The position numbers were made by a program, and so were the translations under genes. From an uncultured Pseudomonadota bacterium (GTDB taxonomy: Bacteria; Pseudomonadota; Gammaproteobacteria; Burkholderiales; Methylophilaceae), in contig CAINBI010000005.1 of assembly GCA_903846555.1 (NCBI GenBank), forward strand, positions 1 through 64,000: 64,000 nucleotides of DNA, in the 5' to 3' direction. How positions within the stretch are numbered: the stretch's first letter is position 1; the number at the start of each line of letters is the position of its first letter. Under the pieces are notes generated by a model. The model did no database searches. It saw only the letters and a program-made list of their open reading frames with translations, and was not told where the DNA came from. This document shows positions 7,122 to 15,101 of this stretch, one piece after another.

Positions 7122-7868
7122 CTATTGGGCTGGTGGCAAAATGGTTTGCTCTGGCGCTTGCTTGGTGAGCTTAGCCACCACAATACCAATTTCATATAAT
7201 AACCACATTGGCACCGCCAACATAAACTGAGAAATAATATCGGGGGGGGTAAATATCGCACCAATGACAAATGCCCCAACAATGACATAGCCGCGTGCTT
7301 GCTGAAGTGTTTGTATGGTAACCCAACCAAATCTGACAGTCATGACCACCGCAATAGGCACCTGAAATGCCAGCCCGAAGGCAAAAAACAAGGTTAGCAC
7401 AAAGTCTAAATAACTACCAATATCCGTCATCACCGCCACGCCTTGGGGTGCGGTGTTGACAATGTAGCCAAATATCACAGGGAAAACCAAGAAATATGCA
7501 AAGCTCATGCCAGCTAAAAACAGTGAGCTACTAGCGACAATCATAGGAATCATGAACTTTTTTTCGTGGGCGTAGAGTCCTGGTGCTACAAACGCCCAAA
7601 CTTGATACATAGTATGCGGCAAGGAAACAATAAATGCCGCCATCATTGCCACTTTCATCGGCACAAAAAATGGCGTAGTCACACCAGTGGCAATCATTTG
7701 TCCACCGATAGGCAAAAGCTTGTTTAACAAGGGCGCAGCAAGAATCTCATAAATTTTATTGGCGAATGGGAAAAATGCGATAAAAACCACCATAAAGCCG
7801 ATGACGATACGCAACAGACGATTACGTAATTCGATTAAATGTGAAATGAAATTGTCGGTAGGCGTCAC
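7122..7868 (-). CDS. tatC: Twin-arginine translocase subunit TatC
   Basis: FISHLIELRNRLLR...; polytopic; follows tatA and tatB. Confidence 0.97.
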   Translation of the reverse strand: MTPTDNFISHLIELRNRLLRIVIGFMVVFIAFFPFANKIYEILAAPLLNKLLPIGGQMIATGVTTPFFVPMKVAMMAAFIVSLPHTMYQVWAFVAPGLYAHEKKFMIPMIVASSSLFLAGMSFAYFLVFPVIFGYIVNTAPQGVAVMTDIGSYLDFVLTLFFAFGLAFQVPIAVVMTVRFGWVTIQTLQQARGYVIVGAFVIGAIFTPPDIISQFMLAVPMWLLYEIGIVVAKLTKQAPEQTILPPAQ

Positions 7869-8215
7869 TAGCTGTGTTTACCCTTTTCTGGCAATTCGGT
7901 GACAGGTTCATTAACCAGCGCTTTAATCTCGGAATTAGCTTCTAAATCCACTAAATCTTGTGTTAATGACGCCGCTTCTTGTTGGAAATTTGTTTGCGCT
8001 TGGGTGGCTTTTGCTTGAATTTCTTGCTGAAGTTGTTGCAACTCTTGAAAACGTACTTCACGATTCACTTCTTCTTTAACTTGCGCGACATATCTTTGCA
8101 TGCGTCCAGTCAAAGCACCTAGTGTGCGTGCTACTTTTGGCAGCTTTTCAGGCCCAATCACAATGAGCGCAACCACTGCGATGACAATGAGCTCTGAGAA
8201 AGAAACATCAAACAT
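7868..8215 (-). CDS. tatB: Twin-arginine translocase subunit TatB
   Basis: MFDVSFSELIVIAVVALIVIGPEKLPKVARTLG. Confidence 0.97.
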   Translation of the reverse strand: MFDVSFSELIVIAVVALIVIGPEKLPKVARTLGALTGRMQRYVAQVKEEVNREVRFQELQQLQQEIQAKATQAQTNFQQEAASLTQDLVDLEANSEIKALVNEPVTELPEKGKHS

Positions 8216-8236
8216 TAGGCTTATCTTTCAAAGTAG

Positions 8237-8575
8237 CTACTTAGTCGCTATTTTTTTAACAGCAGGCTTTTTAGTCGCAGGGGCTTTAGCTGTCGCGCTC
8301 GGAGTGGTTTTAGGTTTTGCTGGAGCACGTTTTCTAGGCGCGGCTTTTGGTACAGGCACTTCAGTAACTTCTGCATCAATCAAATTAGTCGTTGCTTCAT
8401 TTTTAATGGTGTTGAGCGGAGCGGCATCAGCAGTATTCTCCTCATTCATTGCATCTTTGAAGTTTTTAACGGCACCACCAACATCACTACCCATATTCCG
8501 CAATTTTTTTGTGCCGAATATCAACACAACCACTAACAGAACGATCAACCAATGCCAAATGCTCAATGAACCCAT
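8237..8575 (-). CDS. tatA: Twin-arginine translocase subunit TatA with Lys/Ala/Pro-rich tail
   Basis: [43 protein letters not shown]. Confidence 0.97.
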
Positions 8576-11995: not shown

Positions 11996-12583
11996 TTACA
12001 GACTACCTTTGGTAGAAGGCATGATACCTTCCATTCGCGCATCAAACTCAACAGCCATACGCAATGCACGTCCAAAAGCTTTAAAAATTGTTTCGGCTTG
12101 ATGGTGCGCGTTATGGCCTTTAATGTTATCAATGTGCAATGACACGTTGGCATGATTGACAAAACCTTGAAAGAATTCATGGACTAAATCAACGTCGAAC
12201 TCACCTATTTGGGCGCGGGTAAATACGCAGCCAAAAACCAAACCAGGCCGACCTGAAATATCCAATACCACGCGAGATAAGGCTTCATCTAACGGCACAT
12301 AAGCATGTCCATAGCGACGAATGCCTTTTTTATCACCTATTGCCTTTGCAAAAGCCTGGCCTAATGTAATGCCAATATCTTCAACCGTGTGGTGTGCATC
12401 AATGTGCAAATCGCCTTTGGCGTTCACACTAATATCCATCATGCCATGACGGGCGATTTGATCCAGCATGTGGTCTAAAAACCCAATACCAGTATTGAAT
12501 TGAGAAACACCAGTACCATCTAAATTGATAGCAACAGTGATTTGCGTTTCCAAGGTATTTCTGACGACTTCAGCAGTGCGCAT
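11996..12583 (-). CDS. hisB: Imidazoleglycerol-phosphate dehydratase
   Basis: [17 protein letters not shown]...[14 protein letters not shown]. Confidence 0.98.
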
Positions 12584-12777: not shown

Positions 12778-12816
12778 ATTTTCAAGCCCACTTTGTGCAG
12801 TTAAGCTTAAATACAT

Positions 12817-12857
12817 AAAAAAGCCTAGTCAGATACATGATCTTGACTAGGCTCTTT
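12817..12857 (-). terminator. Rho-independent terminator downstream of the hexulose-phosphate synthase gene
   Basis: GAGCCTAGTCA...TGACTAGGCTTTTTT on minus strand. Confidence 0.85.
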
Positions 12858-12958
12858 TACTTACCAGCTCACGCCAATAAGGTTTCTAACGTAATATCTT
12901 TCAAAGAAAATTGAATTTAACGAAAGATACTTCGGTAAGAAACTTCCAATAAGCTAAC

Positions 12959-13813
12959 TTATTGTGCAGCAGCTGGGGCAGCTTCTGTTGCTGCAGGAGC
13001 AGCTTCAGCTGGCGCTTCAACAGCAGGTGCAGCTTCAGCAGCCGGAGCTGATATTTCAGCAGCTGGGGCAACAGCTTCAACTGGTGCTGGTTTTTTACTG
13101 AACATTGTGAACAATGCTAGCAATACTACAGCAGCGATAATCCATGGAAGGAATTTTTTAACGCCACCAGCACTGGCTGAAGCACCGTGTGCAATTGCAG
13201 TGATTTCTGCAGCAGCAGCAGCTGGATCAGTAGCGCCGTAAATAGCAGCGCCAGCAACGATGATTGTTGCGCCTGCATCTTTAACTTGTTGTGTAGTAGC
13301 CGCTTTAACGCCACCAGCAACTGAAATTTCAACGCCTAGGTTTAAACCAGCAACCATTGCTAAGTCATTAAATGGTGTTTGGCCAGCAGCTTGTTGATCT
13401 AAACCAGTATGAACGCCAATGATGTGAGCGCCTAATTTAGCCACTTCTAATGTGCGTGTTTTTTTATCAGCAACGTTGATCAAATCAACTTGTGCTTTTT
13501 TACCATATTTATTAGCAACATCAATGACGCCTTTGATAGTACCAATATCAGCAGTACCTAAAACGGTACAGATATCAGCGCCAGCTTTGTAGAATGGCTC
13601 AGCTTCATAGAAGCCAGCATCCATTGTTTTAAGATCAACTAAGATTTTGTTGTTTGGGAATTTAGCACGTAAAACTTCAAGCAATTTGATACCGTTATGC
13701 TTAATGCATGGTGTACCAATTTCCAAAATATCTACATGTGGAGCAACTTTAGTTGCTAAAGCGACAGTACCGTCGAAATCTAATGAATCTAATGCCATTT
13801 GGGTTTGAGCCAT
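12959..13813 (-). CDS. 3-hexulose-6-phosphate synthase with C-terminal TM helix and Ala/Pro/Glu-rich tail
   Basis: HPS/OMPDC fold DxKxxD motif (DLKTMDAG); EIGTPCIKHNG; then KKFLPWIIAAVVLLALFTMFSKKP and AP-rich tail. ORF track start is a TTG at 13828; GGAGG Shine-Dalgarno supports ATG at 13813. Confidence 0.92.
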   Translation of the reverse strand: MAQTQMALDSLDFDGTVALATKVAPHVDILEIGTPCIKHNGIKLLEVLRAKFPNNKILVDLKTMDAGFYEAEPFYKAGADICTVLGTADIGTIKGVIDVANKYGKKAQVDLINVADKKTRTLEVAKLGAHIIGVHTGLDQQAAGQTPFNDLAMVAGLNLGVEISVAGGVKAATTQQVKDAGATIIVAGAAIYGATDPAAAAAEITAIAHGASASAGGVKKFLPWIIAAVVLLALFTMFSKKPAPVEAVAPAAEISAPAAEAAPAVEAPAEAAPAATEAAPAAAQ

Positions 13814-13833
13814 TGCTACATCCTCCAACTTAA

Positions 13834-14042: not shown

Positions 14043-15101
14043 TTACAAAAGTTCTTTTAACGCGCTAATAAGTTTTTTTGACTGCGCATCCGTACCAATC
14101 GTGATACGCAAATAAGCAGCAATGCGAATTGGCGATTTAAAATGACGGACGATAATGCTCTTTTCACGTAGTAGAGCGGTGAGTTCTGCGCCACCTTTAA
14201 GCTGATGTTTGGCAAAAATAAAATTTGCACCCGATGGCAACACATCAAAACCCAAAACCGTTAACTCTTTAACTAACCTTTCGCGCGTTTCTATCACTTT
14301 GCTACAGGTTTGCTCAAAATATGTTGCATCTTGCATCGCCGCAATTGCACCTGCGGATGCAAAACGATCTATTGGATAGGAATTAAAACTGTCTTTTACG
14401 CGCATTAAAGCTTCAATTAAATCTGCCGAACCCAATGCGTAGCCGACACGCAAGCCTGCTAAAGAGCGTGCTTTAGAAAAAGTGTGTGTGACTAATAAAT
14501 TAGGGTAACGGTGAATTAAATTAACGGCTGATTCTGTACCAAAATCCACATAGGCTTCATCAATGACCACGACTGACTGTGTGTTTTTTTGTAGTAATGT
14601 TTCAATTTGCATTAAAGCCAGAGGAATACCAGTCGGCGCGTTTGGGTTTGGGAATATGATGCCGCCGTTAAGCTGATCATAATCGTCAATATTGATTGTG
14701 AAATCATCCGCCAAGGCAATGGCTTTATATTCAATATCGTACAAGCCGCAATAAACAGGATAAAAGCTGTAGGTAATATCTGGGAACAGTAAAGGCTTGT
14801 CGTGTTTTAACAAAGCCTGAAAAGTATGTGCCAGCACCTCATCCGAACCGTTACCTACAAATACTTGATTCGCCTTCAAGTGATGCACTTCGGCAATTAC
14901 GGCCTTAAGTGCATCCGAGTTTGGATCAGGGTACAAGCGTAGCGAATCTGCCGCCTCTAACTTCAACGCCTCTAAAACTCTAGGGCTAGGGCCATAGGGG
15001 TTTTCGTTGGTATTGAGTTTGACTAGATCGTCCAGCTTAGGCTGCTCGCCCGGCACATAAGGCGTAAGCTTATGTACGATATCGCTCCAGAGCTTACTCA
15101 T
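14043..15101 (-). CDS. hisC: Histidinol-phosphate aminotransferase
   Basis: [18 protein letters not shown]...[15 protein letters not shown]. Confidence 0.97.

Follow-up and report, generated by a model that had tools for sequence, protein, structure and literature searches.

A predicted membrane-tailed hexulose-6-phosphate synthase recurs beside a soluble copy across the Methylophilaceae

The window analysed here, a stretch of 64,000 nucleotides from an uncultured Methylophilaceae bacterium (contig CAINBI010000005.1), carries a stand-alone gene for a predicted 3-hexulose-6-phosphate synthase (HPS) on the minus strand at 12959..13813. The open reading frame is exact, with its ATG at 13813, its stop at 12961-12959 and 284 amino acids in between, and a ribosome-binding site, GGAGG, can be read from the sequence 8 nt upstream of the ATG (13822-13826, minus strand). 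The neighbours, also on the minus strand, are hisC upstream (14043..15101) and hisB downstream (11996..12583). Between HPS and hisB, a minus-strand hairpin followed by a U-run forms a likely intrinsic terminator (12815..12860); the region 12810-12880 has a folding energy of -30.7 kcal/mol (z -7.0), and a simple terminator scanner listed none at 12815..12860. About 230 bp lie upstream of the gene and this strong hairpin with its U-run lies downstream; HPS is probably its own transcription unit inside the his cluster. A promoter scan gave no more than chance. Farther along the window, tatA-, tatB- and tatC-like genes follow the histidine genes (7122-8575), and passages of PMC4109929 describe tatABC adjoining methylamine dehydrogenase loci in Methylophilaceae.

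The HPS barrel occupies residues 1-206 (13196..13813, minus strand). Residues 5-206 score 242.1 bits against the HPS equivalog model TIGR03128 (cut-off 200), covering profile positions 2-203 of 205, and the best solved match of the barrel, both by sequence and by fold, is the HPS 3AJX, to which the AlphaFold model aligns with a TM-score of 0.90 by target length. Residues E31, D60, K62, D65 and H135 are invariant in the HPS alignment, and we take them to be the positions of the known KGPDC/HPS active site. We read the gene product as a 3-hexulose-6-phosphate synthase with an intact barrel, as the earlier note had it for the first ~210 residues. Export by a signal peptide was considered and rejected: the barrel starts at residue 4-5, which leaves no room for one.

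What follows the barrel sets this protein apart from the solved stand-alone HPS enzymes (3AJX, 207 residues; 3F4W, 211 residues), which have no membrane tail. A Gly/Ser/Ala linker ending in KK (IAHGASASAGGVKK, residues 207-220, 13154..13195, minus strand), coil by DSSP and with low pLDDT at 215-217, leads into an 18-residue hydrophobic stretch (FLPWIIAAVVLLALFTMF, residues 221-238, 13100..13153, minus strand), a transmembrane (TM) helix as predicted from hydropathy and AlphaFold and conserved among relatives. The last 46 residues (239-284, 12962..13099, minus strand) are acidic, rich in Ala, Pro and Glu and predicted to be periplasmic. AlphaFold places a helix at 218-238 with pLDDT of about 70-75 and leaves residues 240-284 disordered, with pLDDT below 50. 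The hydrophobic segment of ~20 residues with its KK flank and the low-complexity tail of ~45 residues that had been noticed earlier are thus both recovered. The protein has no N-terminal signal and a single hydrophobic helix near its C-terminus, as expected of a single-pass, C-terminally anchored protein; with 46 residues after the helix it falls outside the classical tail-anchored class, which has fewer than about 30. It also differs from the HPS-HPI fusions (NF041755; PDB 9LJ9), in which the C-terminal addition is an isomerase. Used as a query, the TM tail matches this gene alone in its own genome.

The same genome encodes a second HPS on another contig, a tail-less protein of 210 residues that is 90% identical and lies between transaldolase and a hexuloisomerase-like gene (locus L112), in a tal-hps-hpi operon. 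A search of 187 Methylophilaceae genomes, with 135 distinct HPS sequences (132 complete) extracted from the loci fetched, shows this division across the family. Of the complete copies, the 94 that lie outside the hpi operon all have a C-terminal extension, of the TM type in 58 and of a second, amphipathic type in 36. None of the 38 copies adjoining hpi has a tail; all end at 209-214 residues, and 35 are linked to transaldolase too. Tailed stand-alone copies adjoin hisC and/or hisB in 90 of the 94 cases, and for the other four (L130, L132, L135, L146) no his neighbours were seen in the stretch fetched. The barrel of the stand-alone copy is as conserved in the alignment as that of the operon copy.

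The 58 TM-type copies share an LPW/LPY motif and a hydrophobic helix whose core spans 17-20 residues. Their acidic tails, measured from residue 243, have 26-109 residues with a median of 48.5 and consist of 45% Ala, 17% Glu and 13% Pro. Their maximal 19-residue Kyte-Doolittle means run from 1.67 to 2.66 (median 2.30), against an average of 1.60 and a maximum of 1.89 inside the HPS barrels, so that the weakest tails (1.67) fall within the soluble range; by the same measure, the window's own membrane proteins reach 2.76 (MlaE), 2.46 (TatC) and 2.38 (TatB). The flanks of the helix carry a mean charge of +1.59 before it and -1.41 after it, a positive-inside pattern that favours an N-in/C-out topology. 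Five loci (L009, L024, L058, L070, L093) have TM-type tails ending ..LVGAAKDATGxAx, one position being either D or E (VVGAAKDATGKAQ in L009). A sequencing frameshift, named in the earlier note as what would undo its proposal, or an annotation artefact is rejected, and nothing was found in favour of either: the frame, the LPW/LPY motif and the helix are kept in 58 distinct sequences, including those of the isolates Methylophilus methylotrophus (L069) and Methylotenera versatilis 7 (L067).

The second tail form is a predicted 12-residue amphipathic helix (consensus GGLFGWLKKLFS), with Leu, Phe and Trp lining one face and Lys the opposite one, strongly conserved in sequence as GGxFGWxK. Its pN of 0.11 and pS of 0.70 give a pN/pS of 0.15, close to that of the barrel (0.07, 0.67 and 0.11), so that purifying selection acts on this tail form. 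The helix is short and modelled at 216-224 with pLDDT of about 60; its amphipathic moment of 0.60-0.68 is a modest excess over shuffled sequences (0.33, p about 0.02-0.05). The corresponding DNA pattern has 41 matches in the 187 genomes, nearly all of them at HPS genes, with part of the matches checked by locus. With the TM tail unique to its gene in its own genome and this pattern almost confined to HPS, we rejected the idea that the tails are generic modules of other proteins. That the tails are neutral, functionless decorations of a duplicate gene appears very improbable: the acidic tail is of low complexity and anything from 26 to 109 residues long, as such decorations might be, but tails are never absent from the 94 stand-alone copies and never present in the 38 operon copies, the amphipathic form is under apparent purifying selection, and the changes between forms are replacements, at least five of them, rather than losses.

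The E. coli MinD C-terminal end, KKGFLKRLFGG, binds membranes, and it resembles the end of the amphipathic HPS at locus L135, GLFGWLKKLFGG (in relatives, GLFGWLKKLFGG/S), both in its C-terminal place and in its pattern. MinD is a different enzyme and the likeness is one of analogy and not homology; the window's HPS carries the TM form rather than this one. Unlike for MinD, we know of no ATP-driven on/off switch for the amphipathic HPS tail. By this analogy, the amphipathic tail may work like the membrane-targeting tail of MinD. Short amphipathic C-terminal helices also serve as docking or encapsulation peptides, and the conservation of GGxFGWxK exceeds what bare lipid binding would need, both of which speak for tails that bind HPS to a partner protein, whether soluble or in the membrane, as part of a metabolon or scaffold, with membrane contact secondary. 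We nevertheless hold this unlikely: the TM form is unrelated and evolves fast (pN/pS about 0.45), yet it replaces the amphipathic form, and one specific docking site is hard to reconcile with two such different tails.

How often the two forms have replaced each other can be read from a tree of hisB, hisC, hisH and hisD (87 loci), which requires at least five changes between TM and amphipathic tails. The tree was built by a quick method; its root is placed at the midpoint, which makes the direction of the changes an inferred one. One half of the tree (17 loci) is all amphipathic, except for a locus holding both forms, and amphipathic tails recur inside the mostly TM half. At G046 (L153:1601-3401), two tandem HPS genes are identical over their first 629 nt and then diverge, one into a TM helix with acidic tail and the other into an amphipathic tail. 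This is the only full tandem pair of both anchors; seven further candidate genomes (G120, G125, G126, G154, G156, G037, G180) were rejected as partial matches, mostly at contig ends. Since relatives would hold the stand-alone copy by an amphipathic helix instead, membrane association rather than a particular anchor seems to be what is selected, and a shared need for membrane attachment would be the simplest explanation of the swaps.

A tree of the barrels requires at least 15 changes between presence and absence of a tail. In four genomes (G178, G181, G034, G036), no tailed orthologue in the set is as close to the tailed barrel as its own tail-less paralogue. Such likeness within genomes is as expected from gene conversion between the barrels, with the tail staying with the stand-alone copy. 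A phylogenetically corrected sign test of tail against locus on well-supported branches could count just five pairs, five of five in the expected direction (p = 0.06). At L029:1492-3531, a tailed HPS has a transaldolase gene on one side and hisB on the other, an arrangement that would reflect either a metagenome misassembly or a recombination event that joined the two HPS loci through their barrels.

The combination of barrel and tail thus recurs across the family, as the earlier note had proposed to check, and nearly all Methylophilaceae appear to have two HPS copies, one soluble and one with a predicted membrane tail. In 22 genera the tailed copy is seen from fetched loci and pattern matches, for g3 and g11 as partial evidence. 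In the other two, g2 and g16, probably OM43 and Ca. Methylopumilus, whose genomes are mostly 0.7-1.4 Mb as assembled, the family-wide search found at most one HPS place per genome and the fetched copies are tail-less; the membrane form is therefore not essential for growth by the ribulose monophosphate (RuMP) pathway. Genera g4, g13 and g21 (L127, L129, L131, L147) have two tandem tail-less HPS genes in the RuMP operon, which share about 86% and 65% identity with the query, and also carry a divergent tailed HPS elsewhere. Among the Gammaproteobacteria sampled beyond the family, an HPS scored over the cut-off in five genomes, and the sequences read from them (L183-L187) have no membrane tail; two of these, L183 and L184, are HPS-HPI fusions. 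Old reports describe a particulate HPS in Methylococcus capsulatus.

The absence of the membrane copy from small-genome genera, together with its probably separate transcription unit and own terminator in the his cluster, would suit a regulated or low-flux isoform, used in detoxification or dissimilation and attached to the membrane for regulation or turnover. Nothing specific speaks against such an isoform except that its barrel is as conserved as that of the operon copy; we consider it rather unlikely, if somewhat less so than docking. In the explanation we prefer, and regard as probable as a whole, the family has a membrane-targeted HPS isoform besides a cytosolic copy, with formaldehyde captured at the membrane.

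That the stand-alone HPS is attached to the membrane is very likely. The tail anchor proposed from the window alone is strongly supported by its conservation and by its replacement with a different membrane-type tail. In the window's organism, the C-terminal single-pass helix would fasten a cytoplasmic barrel to the inner membrane, with the acidic tail facing the periplasm; in relatives, the short MinD-like amphipathic helix would hold the stand-alone copy. The tail-less HPS encoded with transaldolase and hexuloisomerase would be the bulk cytosolic enzyme. With this second copy in the same genome, the earlier proposal that the tail places formaldehyde fixation at the membrane stands for the tailed copy, which is predicted there, but fixation would take place partly at the membrane and partly in the cytosol rather than move wholesale.

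We give a little less than even chances to the further step, in which the membrane HPS captures incoming formaldehyde. In this role, the most likely one for the enzyme, formaldehyde from periplasmic methanol oxidation would enter the cell, and the membrane HPS would join it to ribulose 5-phosphate on the cytoplasmic side of the membrane. Among the proteins encoded in the window's genome is a XoxF-like PQQ alcohol dehydrogenase (L213) with a signal-peptide-like N-terminus and a DEWDYDG motif; as an enzyme that would make formaldehyde in the periplasm, it is consistent with such a link and no more. Formaldehyde passes through membranes and needs only milliseconds to diffuse from one side of a cell to the other, so a pure argument from proximity is weakened, leaving room for a membrane partner or a regulatory role. 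A tentative reading, which we rate slightly below capture itself, is a two-compartment entry into the RuMP pathway: one HPS at the membrane, taking up formaldehyde on its arrival and possibly complexed with a source of it in the membrane, and another in the cytosol together with hexuloisomerase. Selection would then act on attachment itself, with the two unrelated anchors exchanged at least five times as a result.

Two HPS genes in Methylophilaceae, hps1 and hps2, one in the his cluster and one linked to hpi and transaldolase and about 90% identical, are already described in passages of PMC4109929. Its main text does not contain the word 'transmembrane', and its relevant passages make no mention of tails; the open-access literature searched likewise yielded no mention of HPS membrane tails in the family. 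Relative to that literature, the two loci are known and the predicted membrane-type tails appear to be new.

It is a long-standing question how methylotrophs avoid a build-up of toxic formaldehyde while its flux is high, and HPS is the enzyme at the entry point, in organisms with the RuMP pathway as in synthetic methylotrophy. With a conserved, predicted membrane HPS next to a soluble one, the spatial organisation of formaldehyde fixation can be put to a direct test in Methylophilus and Methylotenera, which can be cultured, and the tandem pair of G046, with its identical 5' 629 nt and two tails, offers a ready-made comparison. The HPS tails could also be tried in engineered methanol-using E. 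coli.
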